Part shown: positions 32,320 to 47,103 of the stretch, piece by piece
Layout of the letters: each line of letters starts with the position of its first letter
How positions within the stretch are numbered: the stretch's first letter is position 1
Source: a virus
IMG/VR virus record: IMGVR_UViG_3300025093_000013
Location: 1 to 64,000 of that record
DNA length: 64,000 bases
Direction: 5' to 3' (one strand)
Made by a program: the position numbers and the translations under genes
The notes under the pieces: model-generated
Seen by the model: the letters and a program-made list of their open reading frames with translations, nothing else
Told to the model about the DNA's origin: nothing
The model's database searches: none

Positions 32320-32642
32320 GGTATTATCTCGAAGTCTGATCCATCTTTTGTGAGTGTTCTGCGGCGACCTCCTGCTCTGCTACTTCCCATGGATCTCATA
32401 ATCTGGTTTTGAAAAACTCTTATGGCTCCTTGTGCGTCAACATTAGCAGGGCTCCTATCAATCTTCTTTATGGTTTTGTCTATCTTCTTTACTGCCTTTT
32501 GTAGCCTTGGTCTGCTGGTATGAGGTTTGTCAGCTAACTCTCTGGCAATATCTGTCATTCCAACTTTTACTCGCTTACCTTCCCTGTTTACGAAAGGAGA
32601 CTCTGTGATGAGCCCTGTTAATCTGCTGTAAACGCTTGACAT
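32316..32642 (-). CDS. Basic protein, unknown
   Basis: 108 residues, MSSVYSRLTGLITESPF start similar to the MYDRILELIAES type start at 47584; Lys/Arg-rich centre (LQKAVKKIDKTIKKIDR). Starts 27 bases from the divergent gene at 32670. GCAGGTG lies upstream of its ATG. Confidence 0.55.
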   Translation of the reverse strand: MSSVYSRLTGLITESPFVNREGKRVKVGMTDIARELADKPHTSRPRLQKAVKKIDKTIKKIDRSPANVDAQGAIRVFQNQIMRSMGSSRAGGRRRTLTKDGSDFEIIP

Positions 32643-32663
32643 TAGTTAATCACCTGCTACTAT
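32636..32663 (+). promoter_or_regulatory. Host-type promoter for the 32.7 kb early operon
   Basis: TTGACA (32636-32641), 16 bases, TACTAT (32658-32663), then six bases to ATG 32670. On the other strand the same TATATAGTAG could serve the divergent minus gene. Confidence 0.72.
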
Positions 32664-32669
32664 ATACCC

Positions 32670-33194
32670 ATGAACATCTTCTTCCTTGCAAAAAACCCGC
32701 GAGTTTGCGCTGAGTGGCATTGTGATCAGCATTGTAGCAAGATGATCATTGAGTATGCACAGCTTATGTCCACGGCTCATCGTGTGACTGACAGCCCGTA
32801 TGCTGACCAATGCTACAAGATCGCACACAAGAATCACCCCAGCACCATCTGGACTCGCGCATCCTGCGATCACTACGCTTGGCTCTACGAACTGTGGCGT
32901 GAGCTTAACAATGAGTTCTACAGGCGTCGAGGCAAGCATCACCTTTCTTGGAGCAAGCTTGGTCATGTCCTGTGCTACACTCCCCCTGCGCTCCCTGCTG
33001 CTGGTTGGGTTGATCCCCCTCAATGTATGCCCGACTACCTTAAAGGTCCTGAGTGTGTGGAGGCGTATCGTAGGTTCTACTGCCAGGAAAAGCGTAAGTT
33101 CGCTACTTGGACTTGGAACCCCAGCAACAAGCCTATGTGGTGGGATTACAAAGAATACAATGAAGCACGACAAGAGTTATCTGCAAATAGCTGA
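32670..33194 (+). CDS. Conserved phage protein of unknown function
   Basis: 174 residues. N-terminus NIFFLAKNPRVCAEWHCDQH and MIIEYAQLMSTAHR, rich in His, Cys, Trp and Tyr, suggest metal or nucleic-acid binding. I recall similar hypothetical phage proteins but not a proven function. First gene of the rightward early block, immediately behind a strong promoter. Confidence 0.6.
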   Translation: MNIFFLAKNPRVCAEWHCDQHCSKMIIEYAQLMSTAHRVTDSPYADQCYKIAHKNHPSTIWTRASCDHYAWLYELWRELNNEFYRRRGKHHLSWSKLGHVLCYTPPALPAAGWVDPPQCMPDYLKGPECVEAYRRFYCQEKRKFATWTWNPSNKPMWWDYKEYNEARQELSANS

Positions 33195-33561
33195 TGTAGT
33201 AGCAGCAAGGTCCTACTGCAAAAGAAATAAGGTGGGCGCAGTTATCGTAAAAGATAACAGCGTCATCGCTGAGGGATACAATGGCACATGCTATGGTATG
33301 CCCAATCAATGTGAATGTTTGAACGGAAAGACACGGGAAGAAGTAGTCCACGCAGAAGAAAATGCTTTACTTAAAGTCGCTCGCTCCACCCAATCTTGTG
33401 ACGGTGCTACTCTTTACCTCACTCTTTCTCCTTGCCTGCGCTGCGCTCGACTCATCGTGCAGGCTGGCATAGCTAGAGTAGTTTATCGAGATTCGTATCG
33501 AAATCTAGATGGGCTCGGACTACTATCAAGATGCGGAGTAACACATGAACAACTACTTTGA
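33160..33561 (+). CDS. dCMP deaminase-like protein
   Basis: 133 residues from ATG 33160. SYCKRNKVGAVIVKDN, EGYNGTC, zinc motif HAEENALL (His/Glu near 66) and PCLRCARLI. Converts dCMP to dUMP, the substrate of ThyX. Overlaps its neighbour by 35 bases. Confidence 0.85.
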   Translation: MKHDKSYLQIADVVAARSYCKRNKVGAVIVKDNSVIAEGYNGTCYGMPNQCECLNGKTREEVVHAEENALLKVARSTQSCDGATLYLTLSPCLRCARLIVQAGIARVVYRDSYRNLDGLGLLSRCGVTHEQLL

Positions 33562-33865
33562 TGTATACGACAGTTACACAGATAACATGAAACCTTACAA
33601 ATCACACGAAAGCTTCCAAGAACCTGATTACGAGGACAACCCTCCCGATATGGTGAATCATCCTGACCACTACACGGTGGGAGGTATTGAAGCACTTAAA
33701 GTTATTGAGGCAAAGCTTGGTGGCACAGCCAATGAGATGTATCGAGGATATCTCATGGGGAATGTCATGAAGTATCTAATGAGAAGTCCTTACAAAGGTA
33801 AGCGTGTGGAGGATCTCAAGAAGGCACAGTTTTACCTGAACGAACTTGTGGAGTGTTTTAAGTGA
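33545..33865 (+). CDS. DUF3310 family protein (SaV-like)
   Basis: 106 residues. C-terminal half VNHPDHYTVGGIEALKVIE, GYLMGNVMKYLMR, and DLKKAQFYL are the DUF3310 signature seen in many phages. Exact role unknown. Confidence 0.88.
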   Translation: MNNYFDVYDSYTDNMKPYKSHESFQEPDYEDNPPDMVNHPDHYTVGGIEALKVIEAKLGGTANEMYRGYLMGNVMKYLMRSPYKGKRVEDLKKAQFYLNELVECFK

Positions 33866-34458
33866 TCGAGATTGCTAACGATGACTGGGAACTTTACCAA
33901 GATAAGTTCGGGGATCTGATTAGTTTTATTGCTCAAAGGATTACTGGTGATCCTATGTGCTGTGATTATGAGGAGAATGTACAGGATCTTTATATCGCAG
34001 CAATCAACAGCATCAACGGATACTACAAGAAGAACAAGATAACGACTGCCGATATGGCAGTAAGTGAAGTGATTGAGTGTCCTCTGTTTAAACAGTATAC
34101 AAAAACCGTGCTGTGGAATGCCAAGAATTACAAGGGCAACAAAGCTACAAAGTATAAAAACTTCATGCCCACATCTATCGACACGATAGATAATAAGGAT
34201 GATCTAGTTATTGATGACACTAGTAACATCGTAGACTCAGACGATGAGGTATTTAATTACTTTCATAAAAAGTTTAATGGTGAGGAGAGAGAGCTACTAT
34301 CGGTACTGGTAGCACACCCTGAGTGTGTCAGGGACAATGGCACCATTAATTACAATGCGTTGAGCAAAGCATCAGGTAAATCCTTTTACAAGGTGAAGAC
34401 GCGCATGACTAATATCCAAAATAAACTCAATGAAGGACTTTCTAAAGAACACAACTGA
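33862..34458 (+). CDS. Putative sigma-like factor
   Basis: 198 residues from GTG 33862 (GTGA overlap). Residues 25-55 (EENVQDLYIAAINSINGYY) resemble sigma region 2.1-2.2, 75-100 (FKQYTKTVLWNAKNY) region 2.3, and the C-terminus (GEERELLSVLV...NYNALSKASGKSFYKVKTR) a region 4-type helix-turn-helix. T4 gp55 is of comparable size. It may direct host RNA polymerase to the CTATAATAG sites. Confidence 0.5.
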   Translation: MIEIANDDWELYQDKFGDLISFIAQRITGDPMCCDYEENVQDLYIAAINSINGYYKKNKITTADMAVSEVIECPLFKQYTKTVLWNAKNYKGNKATKYKNFMPTSIDTIDNKDDLVIDDTSNIVDSDDEVFNYFHKKFNGEERELLSVLVAHPECVRDNGTINYNALSKASGKSFYKVKTRMTNIQNKLNEGLSKEHN

Positions 34459-34618
34459 TGTCAGTAAGATGTGGACAATCAAGAAAGCGGATGATATCCG
34501 ACAACTTGCTGTCATTTCAGAGGACCTAGAAAATAAGGGATGGAACATTGAAACTGTGAGTGTAGATGAGCTAACCATCCTAGCTTCTAAGCCAAAGGTG
34601 GGCCGTATAGATGGCTAA
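34430..34618 (+). CDS. Small protein, unknown
   Basis: 62 residues, compact alpha/beta pattern (DDIRQLAVISEDLENKGWNIETVSVDELTIL). Overlaps both neighbours. Function unknown. Confidence 0.6.
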   Translation: MKDFLKNTTDVSKMWTIKKADDIRQLAVISEDLENKGWNIETVSVDELTILASKPKVGRIDG

Positions 34619-34961
34619 TCTACTAGAGCAGACTGTTTACATCGCTGGTCCCATCTCAAAGGTAGATTGGACTGAGGCAAAAGTCAAATTTGTAGACCTT
34701 GAAGGTAAGGTTCGTAAGTTCAGCCCCAAGCATATTTACAATCCATTAGACTTCATGGCTCCTCCTGTTCAGATGGATGAGATGGAGCGATGGTCATGGT
34801 ATATGAGACAGGCTGTGAGATGTTTGTCGCTTTGTGATGCCATTGTCCTCATGGACAACTACCATATCAGTAAGGGGGCACGACTTGAAAAGTATCTGGC
34901 AGAAGAACTTGGTATCACAGTTTACCATGAGAGAGACTTGCATGAAGTATCATCTGAATGA
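34611..34961 (+). CDS. DUF4406 / deoxyribosyltransferase-like protein
   Basis: 116 residues. VYIAGPIS at the N-terminus and CDAIVLMDNYHISKGARLE near 85 match DUF4406, related to nucleoside 2-deoxyribosyltransferases. Fits the nucleotide-salvage theme. Confidence 0.82.
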   Translation: MANLLEQTVYIAGPISKVDWTEAKVKFVDLEGKVRKFSPKHIYNPLDFMAPPVQMDEMERWSWYMRQAVRCLSLCDAIVLMDNYHISKGARLEKYLAEELGITVYHERDLHEVSSE

Positions 34962-35175
34962 TATGGGCCAAGCGTCTCGTTTCTGGTATCTCAACTTTTA
35001 CAGGGCTAATGATCAGCTAATTCATATGGGCGTGGACGATGGACAGTTCGTCTATCTAGAGATCCCCCAGATACTAGAAGACTACATCGACACAATGCCC
35101 GACAAAGAGTTTGAAAAGTACATCAACTGGGACTATAATCCCTTTGGAGATGAAAACGATGAAGATTGGGAATGA
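34942..35175 (+). CDS. Small acidic protein, unknown
   Basis: 77 residues from ATG 34942 (GAGAG seven bases upstream). Aromatic N-terminus (RFWYLNFYRAN) and a very acidic tail (GDENDEDWE). Not recognised. Confidence 0.55.
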   Translation: MKYHLNDMGQASRFWYLNFYRANDQLIHMGVDDGQFVYLEIPQILEDYIDTMPDKEFEKYINWDYNPFGDENDEDWE

Positions 35176-35371
35176 CCACAACGGACAAGTTAATGGCGAT
35201 GTCAACCTCTCGAAATGGGAAGTAGACTTGATTTGCGAGGGACTGATCTCTATTATAAGTGACATTCCTGAGGGACATCCTGACCTTGATGTGGCATGTA
35301 AGCTACATATTCAGATGAACGCATTGTTCAATCTTATGGAGGATCCTGATGAACGAAATAATCCCATGTAG
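35159..35371 (+). CDS. Small protein, unknown
   Basis: 70 residues from ATG 35159 (GGAG nine bases upstream). LSKWEVDLICEGLISIISDIPEG and a helical C-terminus with HIQMNALFNLM. Unknown role. Confidence 0.55.
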   Translation: MKIGNDHNGQVNGDVNLSKWEVDLICEGLISIISDIPEGHPDLDVACKLHIQMNALFNLMEDPDERNNPM

Positions 35372-35558
35372 CTCACTTGTACTTGAAATTTATCAAGCAG
35401 ATCTTAGTGCTGGAGCGTCTGCCTTACCCGCAGACTTAGCATCTTCTGTGTCATGTTTTCAGGAATACAGAAATATCATAGCAAATGTCCAAGATGAGAC
35501 AGATACTTTTTGTATGCCAGCATGGATCTACAAACAATGGAAAGACGGAAATGTATGA
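35349..35558 (+). CDS. Small protein, unknown
   Basis: 69 residues from ATG 35349, preceded by GGAGG at good spacing. Contains four Cys and no clear fold. Overlaps both neighbours; the overlap chain suggests translational coupling. Confidence 0.5.
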   Translation: MNEIIPCSSLVLEIYQADLSAGASALPADLASSVSCFQEYRNIIANVQDETDTFCMPAWIYKQWKDGNV

Positions 35559-35574
35559 AGCAACGGAGGCAAGC

Positions 35575-35781
35575 ATGAACGCTGAACTACGGAAGAAAAG
35601 AGAAGAACTAGAGAAGAAACTTGAATACGCACAGAACGCCCACCTTGCATACGCCAAAGGTATTGGAAGTGAAGGTGCGTATCGAGAAAGCTACCAAAAG
35701 GTTCGTGAGATTCGTGACGAACTTTACATGGTAGCGATGGATCTTGGAGATCCCATCCCTTTCAGGATGGAGCCCAAGTAA
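35575..35781 (+). CDS. Small helical protein
   Basis: 68 residues from ATG 35575 (GGAGG 35565-35569); ATG 35551 in frame is possible. Coiled-coil N-terminus ELRKKREELEKKLEYAQNAH, then YQKVREIRDELYMV. Unknown function. Confidence 0.6.
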   Translation: MNAELRKKREELEKKLEYAQNAHLAYAKGIGSEGAYRESYQKVREIRDELYMVAMDLGDPIPFRMEPK

Positions 35782-35783
35782 AA

Positions 35784-35854
35784 TTAACTCAAAGCCTGCG
35801 TGTGTGCGAGGTAGCTTTTCCTGACGATACTAGGAGAGTTAGTTCCTGAGTTAA
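35784..35854 (+). repeat. Long-range inverted repeat between small early genes
   Basis: TTAACTCA (35784-35791) and TGAGTTAA (35847-35854) enclose 55 bases containing a small AGGA/TCCT hairpin and are followed by ATTTTAATAG. Could be a terminator-like or processed RNA element; nothing codes here. Confidence 0.4.
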
Positions 35855-35897
35855 ATTTTAATAGGGACCACCGATACACTACTATGGAGACATGACC

Positions 35898-36020
35898 ATG
35901 GAAGACAACAAAGATAAAACTAAGACCGAACTTACTGACATGCTTGATGGCATCATTGACGAGGTGCTTAAAAGTTTGGACCTTTCTGAGGACGAGGAAG
36001 ACAAAGAGGAAGAAAAGTGA
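35898..36020 (+). CDS. 40-residue acidic protein
   Basis: Very acidic (SEDEEDKEEE end) with a helical centre (LTDMLDGIIDEVLKSLDL). A TACTAT box followed by GGAGA lies 12 bases upstream of ATG. Such acidic micro-proteins may mimic nucleic acid or be partners of basic proteins; role unknown. Confidence 0.55.
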   Translation: MEDNKDKTKTELTDMLDGIIDEVLKSLDLSEDEEDKEEEK

Positions 36021-36232
36021 GGGTAGAAGATATTTACGGTGAAGACTCGCCTGAACCTACCAAGAGGACTGACACTCCCAGAAAGTCTAAGATGAAACCC
36101 GTGCAAAAGGAAGAGGAGAAAGTTATTAATGGTGTGTGGAAGTTTGTCTTCCTGACTCTACTAACTTCTTTCTTCGTAGGTTTCATTAAGGGTATGGGTA
36201 GTCTAGAAAGCCCAACAAACAAAGTTTACTGA
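36017..36232 (+). CDS. Single-span membrane protein
   Basis: 71 residues from GTG (GTGA overlap). A charged N-terminal 40 residues, then one helix WKFVFLTLLTSFFVGFI. Type II-like topology is likely. Function unknown. Confidence 0.55.
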   Translation: MRVEDIYGEDSPEPTKRTDTPRKSKMKPVQKEEEKVINGVWKFVFLTLLTSFFVGFIKGMGSLESPTNKVY

Positions 36233-36252
36233 TTCGATTCTCCTACTACTAT
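36225..36252 (+). promoter_or_regulatory. Early promoter of the 36259 gene
   Basis: TTTACT (36225-36230), 16 bases, TACTAT (36247-36252), six bases to ATG 36259. Confidence 0.6.
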
Positions 36253-36258
36253 AACCAC

Positions 36259-36669
36259 ATGGTTAGTATGCAACAACAAGAACAAGACGCACTCGCCCAT
36301 GACATCAACCAAGCTCTCCGCGATTGCTTTGCGTATAAGCTGGAAGGTTTGGTGAAGCACAACGAAAGGATCCAAGACGAGGTTCTCCTCCTCGTCAATC
36401 GCTTCGAGAACATTGCTACGAGTCGTGATGATGAGGAGCTTATGGATGAACCTTACGATGGTGCTACCGCTATCTTTGATACCTTTGGGTGTCGTTATCC
36501 TACCGACTACTGGGGAGATGATATTGTTCATGACACTCTCAAGTTTCTTGCCAAGTGGATTCTGTTCTCCCGTGATGTGATCAAGCGTTGCCGTGAGGTT
36601 GGGTTCAAGAATGATGAGTGGGTTAACCTTGCCCTCGATCACTATCAGACTGGACGCCATGATACTTGA
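36259..36669 (+). CDS. Unknown helical protein
   Basis: 136 residues, acidic, with long helices (DINQALRDCFAYKLEGLVK and VLLLVNRFENIA) and DTLKFLAKWILFSRDVIKRC. Directly behind a leaderless-type promoter. No family recognised. Confidence 0.6.
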   Translation: MVSMQQQEQDALAHDINQALRDCFAYKLEGLVKHNERIQDEVLLLVNRFENIATSRDDEELMDEPYDGATAIFDTFGCRYPTDYWGDDIVHDTLKFLAKWILFSRDVIKRCREVGFKNDEWVNLALDHYQTGRHDT

Positions 36670-36826
36670 TGAGGAGAAGTTAATTAAACTCTTGGAGGAT
36701 GCCTTTATGGAGGGATTCTCTGAGGGTTTTCATACAGAAGATAGCCCTGGCTATTACCTTGCCGCATGGAGAAGGTACATAGAAGACTTGAAGACTCGAC
36801 CTCCCTGGACTACTATAGACTCATGA
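36659..36826 (+). CDS. Small protein, unknown
   Basis: 55 residues from ATG 36659. EKLIKLLEDAFMEGFSEGF then YYLAAWRRYIEDL. Its 3' end contains the promoter of the next gene. Confidence 0.5.
   Translation: MILDEEKLIKLLEDAFMEGFSEGFHTEDSPGYYLAAWRRYIEDLKTRPPWTTIDS
36788..36816 (+). promoter_or_regulatory. Early promoter of the 36823 gene
   Basis: TTGAAG (36788-36793), 17 bases, TACTAT (36811-36816), six bases to ATG 36823. Confidence 0.65.
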
Positions 36827-36945
36827 GCATCGAAGAACAACTTGAACATGACGGTGACGAGTATTGGTTCACCGAAACTATTACCCTGATCGCAGAGCAA
36901 GACCCTGTGACTAAAGAGTGGATCTACTTTGACGAGGAGAACTGA
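36823..36945 (+). CDS. 40-residue acidic protein
   Basis: Acidic peptide (EEQLEHDGDEYWF and EWIYFDEEN). Behind a strong early promoter with no room for a ribosome site. Unknown role. Confidence 0.5.
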   Translation: MSIEEQLEHDGDEYWFTETITLIAEQDPVTKEWIYFDEEN

Positions 36946-37091
36946 TGGTAGGACGCGAACTTTGGTTTGAACTGAACAAGTTCCACTCTGATCTTGTCAT
37001 TCTTGACCTTACTGATGAAGAGAAACTTGAGCGTGCGCTCAAACTCCTAAAGGACATCTACATCTACGAACACACTGCCAAATACAACTGA
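36945..37091 (+). CDS. 48-residue protein
   Basis: TGATG overlap with the previous gene. WFELNKFHSDLVILDLTDEEKLERAL suggests a small alpha/beta fold. Unknown. Confidence 0.5.
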   Translation: MVGRELWFELNKFHSDLVILDLTDEEKLERALKLLKDIYIYEHTAKYN

Positions 37092-37092
37092 T

Positions 37093-37269
37093 ATGAACAA
37101 CGACCTTCGAGAACGACTGCTTGCTTTCGAGCAAGAGTATAACTCCTCTGACCTTGAGATCAAAGAGAGTGGCAACATGCCTTTTCACTACCAAGAAGAT
37201 GTGAACATGTATCTTCTGGACAAAGCTGCTAAACTTATTGGAGACCTCTTGACATCTGACCTCAACTGA
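37093..37269 (+). CDS. 58-residue protein
   Basis: Begins two bases after the previous stop. Helical, with DVNMYLLDKAAKLIGDLL at the end. The next promoter's -35 box lies in its last codons. Unknown. Confidence 0.5.
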   Translation: MNNDLRERLLAFEQEYNSSDLEIKESGNMPFHYQEDVNMYLLDKAAKLIGDLLTSDLN

Positions 37270-37277
37270 ACTACTAT
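37249..37277 (+). promoter_or_regulatory. Early promoter of the 37284 gene, perfect -35
   Basis: TTGACA (37249-37254), 17 bases, TACTAT (37272-37277), six bases to ATG 37284. The block from 37269 to 37295 is repeated exactly on the minus strand at 44003-44029. Confidence 0.75.
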
Positions 37278-37283
37278 AGAAGC

Positions 37284-37574
37284 ATGAAGATCAACAACTA
37301 CAACAAACTCCCTCAAGGCATCAACGACATGGCTGACCTTCAGATCCATGAGGCGTCCATGCTGATTGGTGCTGCTATCAAGACCCTCTCTGATCTTAGT
37401 CCTCATTGGGAGGAAGAGACGAAGGATCTCCTCGATCTCTACCTTACCCTTCGCCGTGAGCTTCCTGAGAAAGCTAATGGCAAGCATGTCGGACACGATG
37501 ATGCCCATGAGGCTATCAAGTATGGGGCTATTGCTGTCTACTCTGATTACGGAAAAGGAGCAGCAGGACTATGA
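37284..37574 (+). CDS. Unknown protein
   Basis: 96 residues, helical, with HEASMLIGAAIKTLSDL and HDDAHEAIKYGAIAVY; His/Asp-rich end could bind a metal. Shares its first four codons and promoter with the minus gene at 44014 but not the rest. Confidence 0.6.
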   Translation: MKINNYNKLPQGINDMADLQIHEASMLIGAAIKTLSDLSPHWEEETKDLLDLYLTLRRELPEKANGKHVGHDDAHEAIKYGAIAVYSDYGKGAAGL

Positions 37575-37630
37575 TGTTCGCACTTGTTGTCGCATTCGGT
37601 ATCCATATTATCTGGAAGCTCCATGGCTGA
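37571..37630 (+). CDS. 19-residue membrane peptide
   Basis: MMFALVVAFGIHIIWKLHG, a single hydrophobic segment. ATG overlaps the upstream stop and its end overlaps the next start; tiny but well placed in a chain of coupled starts. Confidence 0.35.
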   Translation: MMFALVVAFGIHIIWKLHG

Positions 37631-37721
37631 AAAGATTTTCTACCTGTTCGCAGGAATTTCTGCTATCGCTTTCCCAATTAACTACTGGCTTTCCGACAAG
37701 CTCGACTATCATAAACCATGA
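37623..37721 (+). CDS. 32-residue membrane peptide
   Basis: A hydrophobic centre (IFYLFAGISAIAFPINYWL) and charged tail. Linked to both neighbours by overlapping start/stop codons. Unknown. Confidence 0.4.
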   Translation: MAEKIFYLFAGISAIAFPINYWLSDKLDYHKP

Positions 37722-38014
37722 AGAAACTCGATATGCTTATGTGTGCTGGTATCATGGCAGCAGTTCCCACCATGATTAGCTACGGTGAGCCCGATGGTTG
37801 GATTCCCATGTGGCTTGGTCCTAAGTCTCAGGTGCAAACTTGCCTGATCAACACCGATAACATTGTGATGATCCAGCCTGTGTACGACTCCGATACTTTT
37901 ACCAGTCGCAAGCCTGTTATCAATTACATTGATGTTTACATGAGCGATGGTCGCAAACTTACTGTGACAGAAGACTTTGAGGAGTTCAAGAAGCGGATTC
38001 GTAACAGCCGATGA
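37718..38014 (+). CDS. Small protein with hydrophobic N-terminus
   Basis: 98 residues. The first 22 residues (LDMLMCAGIMAAVPTMISYG) may be a signal or anchor; then a beta-rich domain with TCLINTDNIVMIQPVYDSD and YIDVYMSDGRKLTV. Possibly exported. Unknown family. Confidence 0.55.
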   Translation: MKKLDMLMCAGIMAAVPTMISYGEPDGWIPMWLGPKSQVQTCLINTDNIVMIQPVYDSDTFTSRKPVINYIDVYMSDGRKLTVTEDFEEFKKRIRNSR

Positions 38015-38520
38015 AGCGTCTTCTCCCTCTCCTACTGCTGGCTTCCTGTGAGCCTCTGAGCATCATCCACGATGACCTGACTGACAGCGGATCCAACTGG
38101 GGAGAGGGCTCTACGAACCCCAACCTGAGCGACCTGTGTACTGTCCATGATAGTACGCTAGACAGCTTTGGTTATGTGGGAGACTTTCCTGCGAATGAAG
38201 CATATCATCTTTGCGCGGAAGTTAGTTCGGATGATGATTGGCTAAGTGTTAGTTATCTTCCTACGCCATTCACTCTCAATCTTGAGACCGCAACTTACGG
38301 TTACACGACTGCTCTGGTAACTGTTGTAGAATGGCCTGCTGATCTACCAAATGCTCTAAAAGATAACAACTTCACAGTTCTGGACCAGTTTGAGGTTGAC
38401 GGGACTGTGACTCGAAGCTATTATATTGAGCCTACTGAGGAGAACGCCTTCATGACTATCATAGTGAAGGCACTCAACACCAGCAACTTCAACGAATACT
38501 ATCTGAGGATCGAACCATGA
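38011..38520 (+). CDS. Putative lipoprotein
   Basis: 169 residues. Very short signal KRLLPLLLLASC with lipobox LASC (Cys13). The mature part is acidic and beta-rich (PFTLNLETATYGYTTALVTVV). Early gene, so an envelope change soon after infection, such as superinfection exclusion, is possible but unproven. Confidence 0.6.
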   Translation: MKRLLPLLLLASCEPLSIIHDDLTDSGSNWGEGSTNPNLSDLCTVHDSTLDSFGYVGDFPANEAYHLCAEVSSDDDWLSVSYLPTPFTLNLETATYGYTTALVTVVEWPADLPNALKDNNFTVLDQFEVDGTVTRSYYIEPTEENAFMTIIVKALNTSNFNEYYLRIEP

Positions 38521-41093: not shown

Positions 41094-41101
41094 TCTACTA
41101 T
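41074..41101 (+). promoter_or_regulatory. Early-type promoter reading into the intergenic boundary
   Basis: TTGATT (41074-41079), 16 bases, TACTAT (41096-41101). No standard gene follows; a 17-codon frame begins at 41133 (ATGGCACCC), after AGGAAAAG. Confidence 0.5.
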
Positions 41102-41472
41102 ACACTTGTAGGAAGGGATAGGAAAAGTCAAATATGGCACCCCCTTCTGACCTTGACAATGCATCGTGTAGGAAAAGTCAAATATAAGGGGTGTAATATA
41201 CCCCATGTAAGAAAAGTCAAATCTGATTGCTTGACTCAAAACTAAACTTACACACCCCATCCGAGCAAACTTAAAGCAAGCTTTGAGCCAAGTTTAGATG
41301 GGGTGGGTTGGTCGGGGAGAAAAGTTTAGAGTGCGTTTCATACAAACTCTAAACTACTCTGATTGATACTATTCTTAAGGGGGCGAGACACCCCAAAAGA
41401 AGCAAACTACTGCAATACATATACATGTACAGTAGCAGATCTCATCGAAGTCTAATTCTCGACGGGTCTTAT
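41094..41472 (+). other. Non-coding convergent boundary, repeats and nested hairpins
   Basis: No gene longer than 17 codons. Holds three copies of GAAAAGTCAAAT at 41122, 41172 and 41211 (a fourth is in the HNH gene). A three-tier hairpin follows: CACCCCATC/GATGGGGTG (41253-41305), inside it AAACTT/AAGTTT, and inside that AAAGC/GCTTT. A second stem is GTTTAGAGT/ACTCTAAAC (41324-41354). It separates rightward and leftward operons, so two-way termination is the simplest role; an origin or small RNA is possible. Confidence 0.6.
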
Positions 41473-41727
41473 TCATTTCCCGAACCTTTCACAACTCCTG
41501 CGAAACATAAGTGCAACCCAATTGTCCAAGAATAGCTGATGGAGAACGAATCCCCTAGTGCCTCCCTTGGAAACTTTCATCCACTTCCTACGCCATGCGT
41601 TAGTGGCATTTTCATGCTCATCTAGGAATCTAGGCTCACAAGGTCTATGCCTTGTTTGGAGCATATGATTCCATGCCCAGCAAGTAAGAAGGGCATTGTT
41701 AGGAAACTTAGTAGGTTGAACCATCAT
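41473..41727 (-). CDS. Unknown basic protein
   Basis: 84 residues, Trp/Arg-rich (CWAWNHMLQTRHRPCEPRFLDE, WRRKWMKV). Starts in a four-base overlap with the next gene's end on the minus strand. Unknown. Confidence 0.6.
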   Translation of the reverse strand: MMVQPTKFPNNALLTCWAWNHMLQTRHRPCEPRFLDEHENATNAWRRKWMKVSKGGTRGFVLHQLFLDNWVALMFRRSCERFGK

Positions 41728-41966
41728 CGGTCATTCCTCCAATCTTGATCGTTGTATTGGTCTTCTTCTTCATCCTCGTCGCAAGGAGCGAATGCCTCAT
41801 CTTGGCACTCCTGGCACAATCCAGAGATAGTATACTCCTTAGCAGAGATATCATCTTTGAACCACCCAGCATGGCACCCACACACCACGCACTGCTGGTT
41901 AGCCATAGCGGTAGAGCGAGTGGGCTGGAGGGTGTGGAGGTAAGCTTCCATTTCGGGGCTCTTCAT
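41724..41966 (-). CDS. Small zinc-ribbon protein
   Basis: 80 residues. Cys pairs CVVC and CQEC about 28 apart with an additional CDED tail; acidic C-terminus. Immediately behind a leaderless-type promoter. Confidence 0.65.
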   Translation of the reverse strand: MKSPEMEAYLHTLQPTRSTAMANQQCVVCGCHAGWFKDDISAKEYTISGLCQECQDEAFAPCDEDEEEDQYNDQDWRNDR

Positions 41967-41972
41967 GCGTGT

Positions 41973-42000
41973 ATAGTAGCACCTGGGGACTAGGTTTCAA
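41973..42000 (-). promoter_or_regulatory. Early promoter of the zinc-ribbon gene
   Basis: Minus strand TTGAAA (42000-41995), 16 bases, TACTAT (41978-41973), six bases to ATG 41966. Confidence 0.7.
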
Positions 42001-42020
42001 GCGGAATCTAAGGAAAGTGG

Positions 42021-42087
42021 GCGTCCTAAGTCTAGGTCTGATAAGGGTTTACGGCGATCGGGGCCGCCGCCCGCCAAAATGGCAGGG
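42021..42087 (-). repeat. Stem-loop cassette repeat, copy A
   Basis: Contains GCGTCCTAAGTC, TAAGGGTTTACGGCG and the small palindrome GCCAAAATGGC. Lies between the sigma gene and the -35 of the next promoter (20 bases away). Confidence 0.7.
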
Positions 42088-42106
42088 CTAGTTTATTGAT
42101 ATAAAC

Positions 42107-42598
42107 TCAGGCGAGAGATTGAATAGCGGCCTTGTGCCAGTTGTGAATAGACTGGCCCGAGACATTGTAGTCCTCTGCGATAGAAGCGTAGGACTCGCCC
42201 TCGATAGTGTGACGCAGAACGATATCACGGTCACGGTCGGAAAGGGAATCGAGCATGGAGAGAGTCTCCTTGTCCTCCGTGTAGGAAGGGTGCCAAGCGT
42301 CGGAGTTATCGTCCTCTTTGATAGCGTCCAGGGACATCTGGATACCGTCACCCTTGAGCGCCTTCTTGGCACAGGCACGGTCAATCTCCATCATGCGCCA
42401 CTTGATGCGCTGAATCATGTAGGTCGAGAACTTCATGCCCGCATCGGGAAGGTACGCCTGCTCGCCCTTGTGCAGAGCCAGGAAAGCCTCGGACACCAGA
42501 TCGTCACGATCATAGTGAGCAGAGATGTGAGGCTTCTCCGCGTACAGGTTGGCGTACTTGTTGGCGGCGGGGATGAAGTCGCTGATGGTGTTGCTCAT
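42107..42598 (-). CDS. Sigma-70 family RNA polymerase sigma factor
   Basis: 163 residues from ATG at 42598, which follows a TATCAT -10 box by seven bases (the upstream ATG at 42607 would lie inside the promoter). Region 2: DRDDLVSEAFLALHKG and MKFSTYMIQRIKWRMME; region 4: LSDRDRDIVLRHTIEGESYASIAEDY...SIHNWHKAA, a helix-turn-helix. Likely directs host polymerase to later phage genes. Confidence 0.85.
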   Translation of the reverse strand: MSNTISDFIPAANKYANLYAEKPHISAHYDRDDLVSEAFLALHKGEQAYLPDAGMKFSTYMIQRIKWRMMEIDRACAKKALKGDGIQMSLDAIKEDDNSDAWHPSYTEDKETLSMLDSLSDRDRDIVLRHTIEGESYASIAEDYNVSGQSIHNWHKAAIQSLA

Positions 42599-42605
42599 GT
42601 GACTC

Positions 42606-42634
42606 ATGATAGTCTATTATCGACCACCCGTCAA
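42606..42634 (-). promoter_or_regulatory. Early promoter of the sigma gene
   Basis: Minus strand TTGACG (42634-42629), 17 bases, TATCAT (42611-42606), seven bases to ATG 42598. Confidence 0.6.
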
Positions 42635-42656
42635 CCATTCCTTGAGAGAAATCTCT

Positions 42657-42719
42657 GTCCTAAGTGCCTGGGGGATAAGGACTTACGGCGGGGCGGGCTG
42701 CCCCCGCCAAAATGGCAGG
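42657..42719 (-). repeat. Stem-loop cassette repeat, copy B
   Basis: GTCCTAAGTG, ATAAGGACTTACGGCGG, GGGCTGCCCC stem and GCCAAAATGGCAGG. 22 bases from the -35 of the sigma promoter. Confidence 0.75.
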
Positions 42720-42756
42720 CCCTAACCCCTTGCGGGGCCAGGACTTAGAGCCAGAC

Positions 42757-43545
42757 TCAGGCAGCCGCGAGGATACCCTCGGCAGCGTTCCACAGGTTGA
42801 GGTTGACGCGACTCAGCGCGTCGATGTTGGTGAGTTCCCGAGCCTGACGCTTCTGGCCCTCACCCTTGAAACCCCCACGGATGGTGTTCTCCTGCACACG
42901 GTTGAACACGGTCCACAGGTCGGAACCAATGTCCTCCTGCCTGCGAGGGTTGAGAAGCTCCCGAGAGTCGATCTCGGAGGCAGCACCCCAGCGAGCAACC
43001 TTGCCCGCGTGAGCCATCTGGAACTGCTCCTCATCGTCGAGGTGCAGGTTCGCCATGCTGTCGATGTTGTCCGCGATGTTGGGGACAAGGTTGGACATGG
43101 ACTGGATCGCATCGGACACGCTGTCCATGGACAGGTTCATGTGACGCTGCGTGAAGCTGCCCAGATCAAGGGACTGGATAACCAGACCATTCGAGCAGAC
43201 CAGAGCAAACAGGCCAGCGGCCAGCTTGAGCGAGGACGAGCCATCGCTGGAGTTAGTGACGAGGATCTCGGGGAAGATATCCTGCGAAGGGTTGCGAGGG
43301 TCCGCGATGCGAAGGCTAAGATCCTTGCGCTGGAACCCGAGGGTGTGCTTCTTGTTGTCCGCCGAACGCTTGTAGCTCTTGGGCTGGAGCGCACGGGTGA
43401 CGCCCCATCCAAGCGCGTCGAACTGCTCGACAATGCTGGAGGAAGGGACGAAGCTGTAACGATCCGACATGCGGTCGCAGGGCTTGGAGGCGAAGACGGA
43501 AGGAGCGAGCTTCGCGATCTCGCTGTTGTCCATGAAGGTAACCAT
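42757..43545 (-). CDS. DUF932 (phage/plasmid-like) protein
   Basis: 262 residues from ATG 43545. SDRYSFVPSSSIVEQFDALG, EILVTNSSDGSSSLKLAAG and LFALVCSNGLV match DUF932, found in many phages and plasmids. Role unknown; its early promoter and position beside the sigma factor suggest a take-over function. Confidence 0.85.
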   Translation of the reverse strand: MVTFMDNSEIAKLAPSVFASKPCDRMSDRYSFVPSSSIVEQFDALGWGVTRALQPKSYKRSADNKKHTLGFQRKDLSLRIADPRNPSQDIFPEILVTNSSDGSSSLKLAAGLFALVCSNGLVIQSLDLGSFTQRHMNLSMDSVSDAIQSMSNLVPNIADNIDSMANLHLDDEEQFQMAHAGKVARWGAASEIDSRELLNPRRQEDIGSDLWTVFNRVQENTIRGGFKGEGQKRQARELTNIDALSRVNLNLWNAAEGILAAA

Positions 43546-43551
43546 GCGTGT

Positions 43552-43579
43552 ATAATAGCGTGCCACACTTAGAGATCAA
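43552..43579 (-). promoter_or_regulatory. Early promoter of the DUF932 gene
   Basis: Minus strand TTGATC (43579-43574), 16 bases, TATTAT (43557-43552), six bases to ATG 43545. Confidence 0.65.
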
Positions 43580-43600
43580 CAACAAAAGTGCGAAAGTTAG

Positions 43601-43660
43601 CGTCCTAAGTCGTTGGTACATAAGGACTTACGGCGGCGGGGGCTGCCGCCGAAATGGGGC
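43601..43660 (-). repeat. Stem-loop cassette repeat, copy C
   Basis: CGTCCTAAGTCGTTGGTACATAA-type half followed by GGACTTACGGCGG and GGGCTGCC; the last palindrome is degenerate (GAAATGGGG). 21 bases from the -35 of the DUF932 promoter. Confidence 0.75.
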
Positions 43661-43679
43661 ATCCTATCGGAAAAGTTAG

Positions 43680-43730
43680 AAAAAAACCCCCGAGGATGCC
43701 TCCCCGAGGGCTGCCCATTTCCCGATGGGC
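43680..43730 (-). terminator. Probable leftward terminator
   Basis: On the minus strand a GC-rich hairpin region (GCCCAT/ATGGGC at 43713-43730 and GAGG/CCTC at 43692-43702) is followed by seven T (43686-43680). It ends the 43781 gene. The exact stem is not certain because the G/C tracts allow several pairings. Confidence 0.5.
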
Positions 43731-43780
43731 CACTCGCTTTCTTTCAACTCGGTCGGTTAGCTACCCTCCCGAGCGCATCG

Positions 43781-44014
43781 TCATGCAGATTTAGCCATCG
43801 GCGCGAGGCCGTAGATGCCAGTCCGATTCCAGACCTTGACCGCGTGGTCACGGGTGACTCCAGAGTTGAGGAACTCCCCAGTACGCTGGTTGACGATGGA
43901 AAAGGTGGTGATGCCAGCACGCTGAGTGCGAACCATGCAGTAGTTGCTGTTGCAGTAGCCAGCGACGGGAACGAAGGTCGTGCGACCGTTGGTGTAGCGA
44001 GAGTTGATCTTCAT
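43781..44014 (-). CDS. Small protein, unknown
   Basis: 77 residues from ATG 44014. Beta-rich with YCNSNYCMVRTQRAG and TFSIVNQRTGEFLNSG, somewhat like a small DNA-binding AP2/integrase-arm type fold, but this is weak. First 12 bases of the gene and the promoter match the 37284 gene. Confidence 0.6.
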   Translation of the reverse strand: MKINSRYTNGRTTFVPVAGYCNSNYCMVRTQRAGITTFSIVNQRTGEFLNSGVTRDHAVKVWNRTGIYGLAPMAKSA

Positions 44015-44020
44015 GCTTCT

Positions 44021-44049
44021 ATAGTAGTTTCGAGTGTCGGAAGTTTCAA
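44021..44049 (-). promoter_or_regulatory. Early promoter of the 44014 gene
   Basis: Minus strand TTGAAA (44049-44044), 17 bases, TACTAT (44026-44021), six bases to ATG 44014. The -35 overlaps the end of the upstream gene. Confidence 0.7.
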
Positions 44050-44207
44050 GCGTCCATTGCGTGCTTGTGCTGCTGAATGATATCCCACTCAAGCTCGATA
44101 GCGTCAGCACAGGACTCGCAGAGGAGCGAGTTGCCGAACGGAGAGCCGAGGGCATACTGGGGAAACTGATCCCCGCAAGCGTCACACGCGATGGTGATGT
44201 CTTCCAT
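44046..44207 (-). CDS. 53-residue zinc-ribbon protein
   Basis: Cys pairs CDAC and CESC about 20 apart, acidic helix ADAIELEWDIIQQ. Likely one zinc site. Behind its own early promoter. Unknown function. Confidence 0.6.
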   Translation of the reverse strand: MEDITIACDACGDQFPQYALGSPFGNSLLCESCADAIELEWDIIQQHKHAMDA

Positions 44208-44213
44208 GTGTGT

Positions 44214-44241
44214 ATAGTAGTCTATCGGGCCACGAAAGCAA
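44214..44241 (-). promoter_or_regulatory. Early promoter of the 44207 gene
   Basis: Minus strand TTGCTT (44241-44236), 16 bases, TACTAT (44219-44214), six bases to ATG 44207. Confidence 0.6.
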
Positions 44242-44263
44242 GGGAGAATGTCGAGAAAGTGGG

Positions 44264-44328
44264 GCGCGTAAACCCTTGCAGCATAAGGACTTAGGGCGGG
44301 GGCGGCTGCCCCCTGCCAAAATGGCAGG
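44264..44328 (-). repeat. Stem-loop cassette repeat, copy D
   Basis: GCGCGTAAACCCTTG variant of the left half, then ATAAGGACTTAGGGCGG, GGGCGGCTGCCCCC and CTGCCAAAATGGCAG. 22 bases from the next -35. Confidence 0.8.
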
Positions 44329-44490
44329 TTAGGCTTCTTCTTCCTCACGATAAATATCATACATGATATCGAACGCAGTATCCAAGAGATAAAGGTTGAT
44401 ATCTTGTTCAGCCATAGTTTCTTCAAGAAGACTACTATCTTCGTAGTCAGCCATCCACGCAGTCAGTCTATCTTTGAGTTCTCTCTTCAT
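44329..44490 (-). CDS. 53-residue acidic helical protein
   Basis: Starts at ATG 44490 with AGGTGA upstream, coupled to the gp88-like gene. KRELKDRLTAWMADYEDS and a C-terminal YREEEEA. Its stop abuts repeat copy D. Unknown. Confidence 0.5.
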   Translation of the reverse strand: MKRELKDRLTAWMADYEDSSLLEETMAEQDINLYLLDTAFDIMYDIYREEEEA

Positions 44491-44498
44491 GTTATCAC

Positions 44499-45149
44499 CT
44501 AGTGGGACAGGAACTTCACGGTCATAGTAGATTGCCAGCAGGCACCACAAGTACCACAACTCTCAGTCTTTCCAGTCTGCTCAGGACAAGTGAAAGACTT
44601 ACCCTCGAAAGACTCATCCGCAGCATAACGAATGCCCGACATACTTTCTTTGTTGCGAGACCAGCGAATAACACAACGCTCAGGGTAGGATGCATTCAGG
44701 CGTTGAATACGCTTGCCGATATCATCCTCACGGGCAGTATAACCCCAGATGAGAAGACCATCATACTTGCACAGCATCTCATCCCAGAAGGTTACATAGT
44801 CCGTTGAGAAGAAGTCTCCGAGGACATGGAGACGAATAGCAATCTTGCCATGCTTTGCAATCAGCGTGTCGATCTCATGCTCCAATCGACGAACAAATGC
44901 GCTATAGTCAGCGACAGAATAGCGAGCAGCGAAAGGCATATTGTTTCCATAGCAATCGTCCCAATGGTGGCAGGAACGCGGACAAGTATCGCGTTCGGTT
45001 AGAGTGAGAGAAAAGATAGGGGCACCTGCCCACGCAGTCTTTTTAATACGGCGACCAAGTTTTTTATTGTTGCCACCCGACTTGAGCATAAACACATGAT
45101 TGTCGGGAACGGGCTTGATCGACTTCTGGTAGCGAGTGCTTACTAGCAT
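44499..45149 (-). CDS. GP88-like cysteine-rich phage protein
   Basis: 216 residues. ERDTCPRSCHHWDDCYGNNM holds three Cys in a cluster and the C-terminus has TCPEQTGKTESCGTCGACW, four more; HVLGDFFS and WGYTARE in between. This matches the phage gp88 family, whose Cys clusters suggest a metal or Fe-S site. Function unknown. Confidence 0.75.
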   Translation of the reverse strand: MLVSTRYQKSIKPVPDNHVFMLKSGGNNKKLGRRIKKTAWAGAPIFSLTLTERDTCPRSCHHWDDCYGNNMPFAARYSVADYSAFVRRLEHEIDTLIAKHGKIAIRLHVLGDFFSTDYVTFWDEMLCKYDGLLIWGYTAREDDIGKRIQRLNASYPERCVIRWSRNKESMSGIRYAADESFEGKSFTCPEQTGKTESCGTCGACWQSTMTVKFLSH

Positions 45150-45155
45150 TCCTGT

Positions 45156-45183
45156 ATACTAGCACGGTCGGCCAAGATTGCAA
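45156..45183 (-). promoter_or_regulatory. Early promoter of the gp88-like gene
   Basis: Minus strand TTGCAA (45183-45178), 16 bases, TAGTAT (45161-45156), six bases to ATG 45149. Confidence 0.6.
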
Positions 45184-45193
45184 GCAAAATCTA

Positions 45194-45259
45194 GCGTCCT
45201 AAGTCGTTGCTACATAAGGACTTAGGGCGGGGGCGGCGGCCCCCTGCCATTATGGCAGG
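45194..45259 (-). repeat. Stem-loop cassette repeat, copy E
   Basis: GCGTCCTAAGTCGTTG, ATAAGGACTTAGGGCGG, GGGCGGCGGCCCC and CCTGCCATTATGGCAGG. Ten bases from the next -35, the only copy off the usual spacing. Confidence 0.8.
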
Positions 45260-45260
45260 A

Positions 45261-45473
45261 TCACCTCACAACCTCATCCATAACATAAATCTCCTCATCC
45301 CATCCATCATGCCAACAAGGATAGTCTGCGTGATTATCAACTTCCCAATCCTTATAGCTCTCTTCGATATAGGCTTTGGCATACCTGATAGCGTCCTGCT
45401 GGTCCTTGAACAGACCAAGGAGACGCTTGCCTTCGTGTTGCACTTCACGCCAAAGACAATAAACCTTATCCAT
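45261..45473 (-). CDS. Small acidic protein, unknown
   Basis: 70 residues from ATG 45473 (GGAGAG six bases upstream). LFKDQQDAIRYAKAYIEESY and DYPCWHDGWDEEIYVMDE. Shares one base with the upstream stop. Unknown. Confidence 0.55.
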   Translation of the reverse strand: MDKVYCLWREVQHEGKRLLGLFKDQQDAIRYAKAYIEESYKDWEVDNHADYPCWHDGWDEEIYVMDEVVR

Positions 45474-45667
45474 CAAAACTCTCCAATGTAGTGGCCGACA
45501 CGCCAAATTAGATCTTGCACCATATCCTCCACAACATATGATGGCTCATCACCATAACTTAGTTTGCTACGGATCTGCTTGAGTTCTTCAAAGGTGCGAT
45601 TGAGCATATCAAGTGCTTCTTCAAGTTCTTCTTGATGAAGCATATCAAGCGACTTTTCATCCATCAT
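45473..45667 (-). CDS. Small helical protein
   Basis: 64 residues from ATG 45667, preceded by GAGGTTGG. Acidic coiled-coil (LHQEELEEALDMLNRTFEEL). Unknown function. Confidence 0.55.
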   Translation of the reverse strand: MMDEKSLDMLHQEELEEALDMLNRTFEELKQIRSKLSYGDEPSYVVEDMVQDLIWRVGHYIGEF

Positions 45668-45797
45668 ATTTCCAACCTCTACAGGCGTTCTTGTTCTCTG
45701 CGCGTTTCTTACTGGTGATCTTATGGGCTCGACGGGCGAACTCCATATTGCGAAGGTGATTCCTACGCTTGGCAAGGTTCTTATCGTGCTGGTCCAT
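45657..45797 (-). CDS. 46-residue basic protein
   Basis: Arg/Lys/His/Asn-rich (NLAKRRNHLRNMEFARRAHK). Could bind nucleic acid. ATG lies eight bases after a TACTAT box with TTTACA at -35 inside the endolysin gene. Confidence 0.5.
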   Translation of the reverse strand: MDQHDKNLAKRRNHLRNMEFARRAHKITSKKRAENKNACRGWKYDG

Positions 45798-45801
45798 GGT
45801 A

Positions 45802-46236
45802 TTAGATAGTAGACCGAAACTTGGCAGTGTAAAACTTTACATTCTTGATCCAGTGCTTATTGAGTCCAGTCGGGTCGTTATCAGCACCCACGGGACAATA
45901 ACGCTTGCCAAGGAAAGTAATAAAGTCTCCCTTGCTACCAGCCTTGACCCAGCGATCATAGTTCTTCTGGACAGTGGCAGCACACCACCCAGCTTGGTTA
46001 CGGTATCCAGGCTTGCAACGCTTGTGGATGATACCGTACTGGTACTTCTTGCCATTCTCTGCATACCTAATGGCTGCAACAATAGGGGCAAGTTTAGTGC
46101 GACACTCAGGACGGATATTCACATTGATAGCATCCTGATATAGAGCAGCGTTAGCCTTGCCGTCCTTAGTCTCGATTGCAGAGTACCCATCGGCAAGGAC
46201 AGGGGCACACAGGAGGAGTGCAAGGATAAACTTCAT
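45802..46236 (-). CDS. Secreted lysozyme-like endolysin
   Basis: 144 residues from ATG 46236 (GGAG eight bases upstream). Signal peptide KFILALLLCAPVLADG; then IVAAIRYAENGKKYQYGI, with a catalytic-Glu context typical of the lysozyme/transglycosylase fold, and AATVQKNYDRW, GDFITFLGKRYCPVGADN. Exported by the host Sec system to cut peptidoglycan. It lies among apparently early genes, unusual for a lysin. Confidence 0.7.
   Translation of the reverse strand: MKFILALLLCAPVLADGYSAIETKDGKANAALYQDAINVNIRPECRTKLAPIVAAIRYAENGKKYQYGIIHKRCKPGYRNQAGWCAATVQKNYDRWVKAGSKGDFITFLGKRYCPVGADNDPTGLNKHWIKNVKFYTAKFRSTI
45806..45833 (-). promoter_or_regulatory. Early-type promoter within the lysin gene end
   Basis: Minus strand TTTACA (45833-45828), 16 bases, TACTAT (45811-45806), eight bases to ATG 45797. 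Confidence 0.5.
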
Positions 46237-46328
46237 CGCCAAAGCTCCCAGTCGATGTAACCAGAGAAGAAGAGAGCTTCCTCGCCCTCTTGCTCGTTCA
46301 TCTCGTCTTCGTACTCTTCAAGGTCCAT
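46233..46328 (-). CDS. 31-residue acidic peptide
   Basis: MDLEEYEDEMNEQEGEEALF, then FSGYIDWELWR. Directly behind an early promoter; overlaps the lysin start by four bases and could set its translation. Confidence 0.5.
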   Translation of the reverse strand: MDLEEYEDEMNEQEGEEALFFSGYIDWELWR

Positions 46329-46334
46329 GTGTGT

Positions 46335-46362
46335 ATAGTAGCACAGTCTGGCTATGGTGCAA
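46335..46362 (-). promoter_or_regulatory. Early promoter of the acidic peptide and lysin
   Basis: Minus strand TTGCAC (46362-46357), 16 bases, TACTAT (46340-46335), six bases to ATG 46328. Confidence 0.65.
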
Positions 46363-46383
46363 GACTTTATGGGTAGAAAGTGT

Positions 46384-46449
46384 GGCGCGTAAACCCTTGC
46401 TATATAAGGACTTAGGGCAGCGGCGGCAGCCCCTGCCACAATGGCAGGG
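46384..46449 (-). repeat. Stem-loop cassette repeat, copy F
   Basis: GCGCGTAAACCCTTG, ATAAGGACTTAGGGC, GGCGGCAGCCCC and CCTGCCACAATGGCAGG. 21 bases from the next -35. Confidence 0.8.
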
Positions 46450-46500
46450 GTGAGCGGTTGTGGATCAATCTAGTTCACCACGCGCCCTCACCCCCTATAT

Positions 46501-46743
46501 TCACTGCGTCGAGAGGTGGGCTTCCAAGTGACCCAGACGCTTGCCATTGGGCTTGGTAGGCATCAGCCTACGGACAGCCTTATAGGCATCGAGGGCTTGA
46601 TTCCACTCGTCCCACTCGACGGCAGGGTTAGTGTAGGCCGCACGGAAGTTGCGACCCAGTTCCTCGGACATGGCCTGAAGCCTAGCCTCAGTGTAGGTGT
46701 ATTGATCTTCCATAGAGAACAGAGCTTTGAACTTGCGCCACAT
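46501..46743 (-). CDS. Small helical protein, unknown
   Basis: 80 residues from ATG 46743 (TGATATG junction with the upstream gene; ATG 46713 is an alternative). TEARLQAMSEELGRNFRAAY and a basic C-terminus with HLEAHLS. Unknown. Confidence 0.55.
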   Translation of the reverse strand: MWRKFKALFSMEDQYTYTEARLQAMSEELGRNFRAAYTNPAVEWDEWNQALDAYKAVRRLMPTKPNGKRLGHLEAHLSTQ

Positions 46744-46744
46744 A

Positions 46745-46903
46745 TCAGAAGGAGTAGCCTCCGTCATCAGCAGGACCGTAGGCGCTCTCCCACCAGTCAG
46801 CGTCAGAGGCTTCGTAGTAATACTCGTCACACTCGATCTGCTCCTCCCACGAAGGGTCGAAGTTGTCGGGGAGGTCGGAGGTGTAGTCAGGGGTGCTTTC
46901 CAT
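46745..46903 (-). CDS. 52-residue acidic Trp/Tyr-rich protein
   Basis: Many Asp, Glu and aromatics (ECDEYYYEASDADWWES); could mimic DNA. First gene of the leftward array, immediately behind an early promoter. Confidence 0.55.
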   Translation of the reverse strand: MESTPDYTSDLPDNFDPSWEEQIECDEYYYEASDADWWESAYGPADDGGYSF

Positions 46904-46909
46904 GCCCCT

Positions 46910-46938
46910 ATAGTAGCCTGCACCCCTTCCCCCGTCAA
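46910..46938 (-). promoter_or_regulatory. Early promoter of the leftward array's first gene
   Basis: Minus strand TTGACG (46938-46933), 17 bases, TACTAT (46915-46910), six bases to ATG 46903. Confidence 0.7.
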
Positions 46939-46959
46939 CCTAAAACCGTGCGGAAAAAG

Positions 46960-47003: not shown

Positions 47004-47025
47004 AACATCATGTCTTACATATCAA

Positions 47026-47079: not shown

Positions 47080-47103
47080 AATAATTCGGAGCTATATAAG
47101 AGT

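Follow-up and report, generated by a model that had tools for sequence, protein, structure and literature searches.

Architecture of the locus

The window analyzed here is a 64,000-nt stretch of viral DNA, part of a 112,473-bp virus record (IMG/VR IMGVR_UViG_3300025093_000013), and carries between positions 32,636 and 46,938 a cluster of genes whose promoters lie so close to their start codons that the transcripts are predicted to be leaderless. Matches to portal, terminase and UvsX proteins suggest a placement of this phage near the T4-like myoviruses, a label of our own. A first-pass annotation had listed eleven ATGs in the cluster, on both strands, and at every one of them we found TAnTAT, exactly six bases and ATG, with TTGnnn or TTTnnn 16 or 17 nt farther upstream. 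Its description of the genes as small holds for most of them and fails for three, whose products measure 262, 216 and 174 amino acids (aa). A twelfth site, unlisted there, lies on the plus strand at ATG 35892, where a 42-aa reading frame opens 6 nt after TACTAT.

On the plus strand, the unit at 32636..33194 reads TTGACA-16-TACTAT-6-ATG(32670), that is, −35 hexamer, spacer length, −10 hexamer and distance to the start codon, and encodes a 174-aa product matching PHROG 624 'DNA binding protein', with a sub-threshold match to Pyr_excise; its spacing is kept in two relatives, G001 and G007. The added unit at 35857..36020 (TTTAAT-17-TACTAT-6-ATG(35892)), with equal spacing in the same two relatives, is ambiguous. 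It is followed by TTTACT-16-TACTAT-6-ATG(36259) (36225..36669, 136 aa), kept in both at 35–37% protein identity, by TTGAAG-17-TACTAT-6-ATG(36823) (36788..36945, 40 aa), whose arrangement is absent in the homologs from both, and by TTGACA-17-TACTAT-6-ATG(37284) (37249..37574, 96 aa).

The minus strand carries the units TTGAAA-16-TACTAT-6-ATG(41966) (41724..42000, 80 aa, PHROG 19722), TTGATC-16-TATTAT-6-ATG(43545) (42757..43579, 262 aa, DUF932), TTGCTT-16-TACTAT-6-ATG(44207) (44046..44241, 53 aa), TTGCAA-16-TAGTAT-6-ATG(45149) (44499..45183, 216 aa, GP88 family), TTGCAC-16-TACTAT-6-ATG(46328) (46233..46362, 31 aa) and TTGACG-17-TACTAT-6-ATG(46903) (46745..46938, 52 aa). Among them lie TTGAAA-17-TACTAT-6-ATG(44014) (43781..44049, 77 aa), which has a leadered ortholog in the relative G002, and the sigma factor gene (42107..42634, minus strand, 163 aa), whose promoter reads TTGACG-17-TATCAT-7-ATG(42598). 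The seven-base distance annotated for the sigma gene was correct and applies to TATCAT-GAGTCAC-ATG at 42598 rather than to the upstream ATG at 42607.

Distance from the −10 element to the start codon

Across the whole record, the distance from TAnTAT to the ATG of open reading frames (ORFs) of at least 30 codons was 6 nt in 14 cases, and each other bin from 0 to 40 held between 0 and 4. With a −35 element also required, at 16 or 17 nt, the record has 12 distinct sites at exactly 6 nt, identical stretches having been merged before counting. The shuffled controls that the first-pass annotation had proposed gave a mean of 0.06 (maximum 1) in 50 dinucleotide shuffles of the genome and 0.01 (maximum 1) in 200 shuffles of the region. 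Its statement that no Shine-Dalgarno (SD) sequence fits was also borne out: none of the 12 starts reached an SD energy of −5 or below, compared with 45 of 101 other gene starts, as called by our own crude gene caller, and 13% of 3835 other ATGs.

Transcription from a sigma-70 promoter usually begins 7–9 bases after the −10 element, RNA polymerase prefers a pyrimidine-purine step at the start, and C is a poor initiating base. As had been proposed, a standard start site falls on or next to the ATG, whose A is the seventh base after the −10. All 12 sites share a C at −13 and T-A-n-T-A-T, and most have A at −6 (11 sites), A at −4 (10) and C at −1 (11); the first T of the −10 lies 12 nt from the ATG and a −35 is present at each site. 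A C at −1 would be absent from an mRNA starting at A and useless for translation, so its conservation favors a start at the A itself.

The same distances recur when nine records chosen for showing the pattern are summed: 83 cases at 6 nt and 19 at 7 nt, with 3–16 at each other distance from 0 to 30, and a C at −1 in 89 of the 102 sites with 6 or 7 nt. This sum omits L070 (one case at 6 nt, two at 7) and leaves G009, G006 and G014 outside it. These counts bear on whether the promoters, though real, start transcription slightly before the ATG, by one to a few bases, so that the mRNAs would carry ultra-short leaders and not be strictly leaderless. Such leaders would likewise be SD-free, sigma-70 start sites do scatter by a base or two, and the spacing is 7 nt at the sigma gene and at four of the eight such genes of a 130-kb relative described below. 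The sharpness of the summed peak and the poor initiating base at −1 in both sets (11/12 and 89/102) stand against this reading, which we regard as quite improbable.

Conservation in relatives

Megablast of 32400–47000 against 50,697 named phage records returned no relative, and tblastn of the sigma protein against named phages gave no match. As relatives we used contigs from an environmental virus collection and one 130,604-bp contig, QCKN01000003.1 (here G015C3; its virus-collection entry is G003), which has 53% portal identity and belongs to an assembly bearing the title Prochlorococcus sp. AG-409-P03. Ortholog comparisons were confined to alignments starting at residue 6 or earlier, which excludes the homologs of 36823 (aligned from residue 8) and a partial hit for 37284. 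This left 36 rows spanning 11 of 13 queries, with none for 35892 and 36823; two rows come from L001, which is near-identical here. For each row, the ATG within −6 to +5 codons that lay nearest to a 6–7 spacing was chosen, and control genes were treated alike.

The spacing was 6–7 nt at 33 of the 36 orthologous starts (28 at 6 nt and 5 at 7 nt), compared with 9/145 for control genes of the same records and 18/348 in the full record set. Among 26 ortholog pairs that have 6 nt, each of the six −10 columns is identical in 20–25 and each of columns −5 to −2 in 9–15, and the ATG is kept in all 26. Because second ATGs occur within five codons of the first at 36259, 43545 and 35892, we considered whether the true starts are downstream in-frame ATGs behind short leaders. 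Alignment from residue 1 in 26 of the 36 rows speaks against this, as does the pattern of change from codon 2 onward: over codons 2–12, third positions differ at 51/214 sites and the other two positions at 18 and 22 of 214 (21 hand-picked pairs among the 26 rows aligning from residue 1, each followed to its first gap). The substitutions are codon-like, and we regard downstream starts as very improbable.

The G002 ortholog of 44014 carries TTGACG-17-TACTAT-6-A, then TAAGGAAACTTCCC, then ATG. The ATG has thus moved off +1, and the resulting 15-nt leader holds an SD-like AAGGA, seen by eye. In G015C3, eight genes with the arrangement lie near both contig ends, with TATAAT or TACAAT as the −10 and C at −1 in 8/8.

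Environmental virus contigs, relatives or not, were scanned for TTGACA..TAnTAT..CATGAAR with 2–14 free bases and without a shuffle control; of 78 distinct ones among the matches listed, 28 had a distance of 6 nt and 17 one of 7 nt. This peak implies that gene callers expecting an SD may misplace phage starts. A first scan with the CTACTATA form, which had no spacing control, yielded 92 stretches; behind many of these the ORF was short or absent. Also among the listed environmental matches, L103, L265, L289, L290, L301 and L310 have N-termini that look similar by eye behind TTGACA-TAnTAT-6-ATG, and L103, the sole one of the six that was scanned, matches PHROG 107 'exonuclease'.

A phased dyad upstream of about half of the starts

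Six copies of a 61-nt repeat lie between the minus-strand genes, and its conserved core is a dyad, CSTAAGTCC-N11-GGACTTASG. A dyad scan of this phage found eight sites matching at least 13/18, six of which lie 48–60 nt upstream of a predicted leaderless ATG: 42025..42053 (58 nt from ATG 41966), 42659..42687 (60 nt from the sigma ATG 42598), 43604..43632 (58 nt from 43545), 44267..44295 (59 nt from 44207), 45198..45226 (48 nt from 45149, about one helical turn closer than the other five) and 46388..46416 (59 nt from 46328), all on the minus strand. The remaining two comprise a second site at 122 nt and one elsewhere. The dyad thus accompanies 6 of 13 starts, sigma included; among the minus-strand units, those at 44014 and 46903 have none.

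Across 12 records, 43 dyads match at least 14/18, and for 37 of these a leaderless-type promoter lies no more than about 105 nt away. The 41 dyad–ATG pairs have gaps of 48 (2 pairs), 58–60 (26), 63, 64, 68–70 (5) and 77–79 (6), so that 39 of 41 fall on a ladder of about 10 bp whose rungs were set after the data had been seen. At a threshold of at least 13/18, there are 169 oriented dyad calls, a palindrome being countable on both strands, of which 54 have a leaderless promoter within 150 nt; four pairs below 105 nt, from contigs found by DNA pattern, and nine pairs above 105 nt stand outside the 41. Counted from the A of the ATG, dyad centers lie near −63, −74, −84 and −93, and near −63 or −74 in this phage.

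Homologous genes show the same steps. The gap is 48, 48, 59, 60, 68 and 78 for GP88-type homologs (blastp) in six records, one ORF being cut by a contig end, and 59, 60, 60 and 79 for sigma homologs (blastp). Four further homolog pairs, one of them inside a single contig, differ as 58/68, 58/78, 59/79 and 59/79, and three more homolog groups retain the 58–60 gap. Shifts of the dyad between homologs thus measure about 10, 20 or 30 bp, and other values are rare.

Its setting within the 61-nt repeat, after a GC-rich palindrome and often directly behind a stop codon, would suit a cassette in which a terminator or insulator belonging to the gene ahead of it moves along with the promoter, the spacing being inherited rather than functional. 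The stepwise gaps between homologs fit this poorly, and no T tract follows the dyad. An RNA fold of the repeat has 10 pairs, one with a compensatory change, and in the consensus fold pairing joins the flanking palindromes and involves the dyad only at its edge. We consider a terminator or insulator fairly unlikely; a dimeric protein touching RNA polymerase from one helix face would account for the phasing, and such a binder remains putative. A phage origin of this protein is probable: 61 genomes of the G015 family show no enrichment of the dyad, with 4 matches, including 2 on the phage contig, versus 11 in controls, although this comparison would be of little weight for a host from another family.

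Proposed mechanism and its weighing

Taken together, we think it highly probable that these genes are expressed from leaderless mRNAs and that about half of the starts are switched through a protein predicted to bind the phased dyad and contact RNA polymerase. RNA polymerase with a housekeeping-type sigma would bind TTGnnn or TTTnnn and, 16 or 17 nt on, TAnTAT, and would begin transcription with the A of the ATG, seven bases past the −10; the message would then be translated through recognition of its 5'-terminal AUG with no SD. At about half of the starts, a dimeric protein on CSTAAGTCC-N11-GGACTTASG may contact the polymerase always on the same side of the helix and so switch these genes together as one regulon. 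The leaderless use that the first-pass annotation had inferred gains support from the lack of SD sequences, the C/A step at the start, the kept spacing, the codon-like substitutions and the SD-like motif in the ortholog whose ATG has moved. The exact 5' ends and the mode of translation are predictions, as are the existence, identity and sign of action of the dyad-binding protein, and only promoter type and gene layout suggest the 'early' timing of the cluster.

Which sigma factor would read these promoters affects this timing. The sigma gene sits inside the cluster and the −10 here is TAnTAT rather than plain TATAAT, so the phage-encoded factor, and not the host sigma, might serve a set of middle rather than early genes. 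The sigma gene is itself under the same type of promoter, and the 130-kb relative (G003/G015C3) has the arrangement, with its TATAAT or TACAAT, and no match to Sigma70_r4, the one Pfam model tried. By that one model, promoters and sigma gene do not always occur together; the phage sigma seems not to be required, and we judge it unlikely that it reads these promoters in place of the host sigma.

Several observations weigh against a shared leaderless and phased design. The 6–7 nt spacing is missing in three of the 36 ortholog rows (46328 in G001, DUF932 in G015C3 and the leadered 44014 ortholog), and the 36823 homologs in G001 and G007, which align only from residue 8, lack the −10. No ortholog row was obtained for 35892, which is the weakest of the 12 sites because GGAG precedes a second ATG two codons later, an alternative SD-led start. 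The whole-record histogram of G015C3 is not sharp (8 cases at 6 nt, 6 at 7 and 9 at 29), and G009 (54% portal identity) has no clear peak (6 and 6) and no dyad. In the full set of 80 portal loci, most of which are short structural fragments near the portal, the 6-nt bin for TAnTAT (32) is hardly larger than the others (2–30), so the arrangement is present in part of the relatives. Seven of the 13 starts in this phage have no dyad. The ladder itself was drawn post hoc, two dyads lie off it (gap 63 in L070 and 64 in L072), and a circular test on 15 distinct dyad-to-−10 distances gave a weak R of ~0.32.

A wider reading, possible if doubtful, is that an aquatic myovirus family maintains a dedicated leaderless regulon of many genes, each with its own promoter and an mRNA beginning on the AUG, a large share of them switched jointly by a phage activator on the phased dyad, possibly in cyanobacterial hosts in whose own genes the arrangement is scarce. 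If true, leaderlessness would be a translation mode imposed by the virus and not a habit of the host.

Host clues and other features

The photosynthesis gene model Photo_RC found nothing in the 7 records searched. The pattern TTGAC-17..19-TANNAT-6-ATG with C at −1 occurs in 0/40 other genomes of the G015 family, its sole match being the phage contig, and in 7/41 genomes of the G019 family (8 forward and 1 reverse matches versus 1 control match). The form without a −35 gave 7 matches in 41 G015-family genomes, one on the phage contig, versus 2 in controls, and 11 single genomes had mixed low counts of the arrangement. Relatives of the GP88-type protein among named phages comprise six records labeled Sphingomonas, Rhodobacter, Ruegeria and Roseobacter. 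They point away from Prochlorococcus, which is merely the title of the assembly holding one relative.

Outside the promoter units, a 20-nt repeat built around GAAAAGTCAAAT occurs four times at 40997–41226 and is iteron-like. Three copies of a AGGGACTCCTA repeat at 47025–47089 lie just before genes near 47108, 47318 and 47640, which by eye contain repeated 'AALG'-like peptide stretches. The terminase gene (+49649) and a minus-strand gene (−49650) begin on overlapping ATGs at 49648–49651, and in several relatives a −10-like box lies 5–7 nt before one or both of these. The contig G006 (L145/L238) has repeated TTGACAATTAAT/TTGACAAAAAAG..TACTATATAAACATG promoters, with 7-codon ORFs after two of three distinct ones. 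Along a run of genes at 15733–24365, which from their sequence may be sugar or surface-glycan genes, GC falls to 0.36.

Comparison with known systems

To our knowledge, work on leaderless initiation has mostly concerned individual phage genes (lambda cI) or hosts in which it is abundant, and we know of no phased dyad in the Thermus phage phiYS40. In TA-led bacterial genes, a TANNNT some 12 bp ahead of the start codon is read as the −10 of a leaderless gene; these genes are cellular and commonest in Actinobacteria and Deinococcus-Thermus (Zheng 2011, PMC3160421). The phage sites carry this motif at that distance beyond chance and so share the −10-to-start distance, in genes that form a phage cluster. 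Reporters showed that −10-adjacent ORFs of Deinococcus-Thermus need a specific spacing, and there, as here, the −10 motif adjoins the ORF; those genes are cellular and a −35 was added to enhance them (PMC12340547), whereas here each of the 12 sites already has one.

Among phages, a review states that phiYS40 makes many leaderless mRNAs, which belong to middle and late genes and are linked to raised IF2 and lowered IF3 (PMC3594737). In Cluster O mycobacteriophages, the +1 of predicted promoters coincides with or yields a leaderless start (PMC4351075), and a predicted promoter gives one for Adephagia gene 90 (PMC11373665); unlike the larger cluster of this phage, these are three promoters and one, respectively, in phages of a mycobacterial host. 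A transcriptional role for the Cluster O dyad repeats was judged unlikely by their authors (PMC4351075). The AR9 paper, citing another work, calls phage transcripts 'often leaderless', so leaderless phage mRNAs are shared, and the part of it available to us describes neither a cluster nor a phased operator (PMC5312081).

Our literature search, which mostly left subscription papers outside its reach, found no such leaderless cluster in a marine phage and no cluster of this size combined with a phased upstream dyad. Leaderless phage genes are thus already known, and the putative phased-dyad regulon looks new. Class I activator promoters of the CRP type carry their sites near −62, −72, −82 or −93, in helical-turn steps. 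The dyads here take similar positions at helical-turn spacings, the two off-ladder pairs excepted; the dyad sequence differs from that of the CRP type, and leaderless starts are added. Together, a gene cluster, a natural leadered ortholog and a helically set candidate operator would allow a test of why a virus uses 5'-AUG initiation and how such initiation is regulated.

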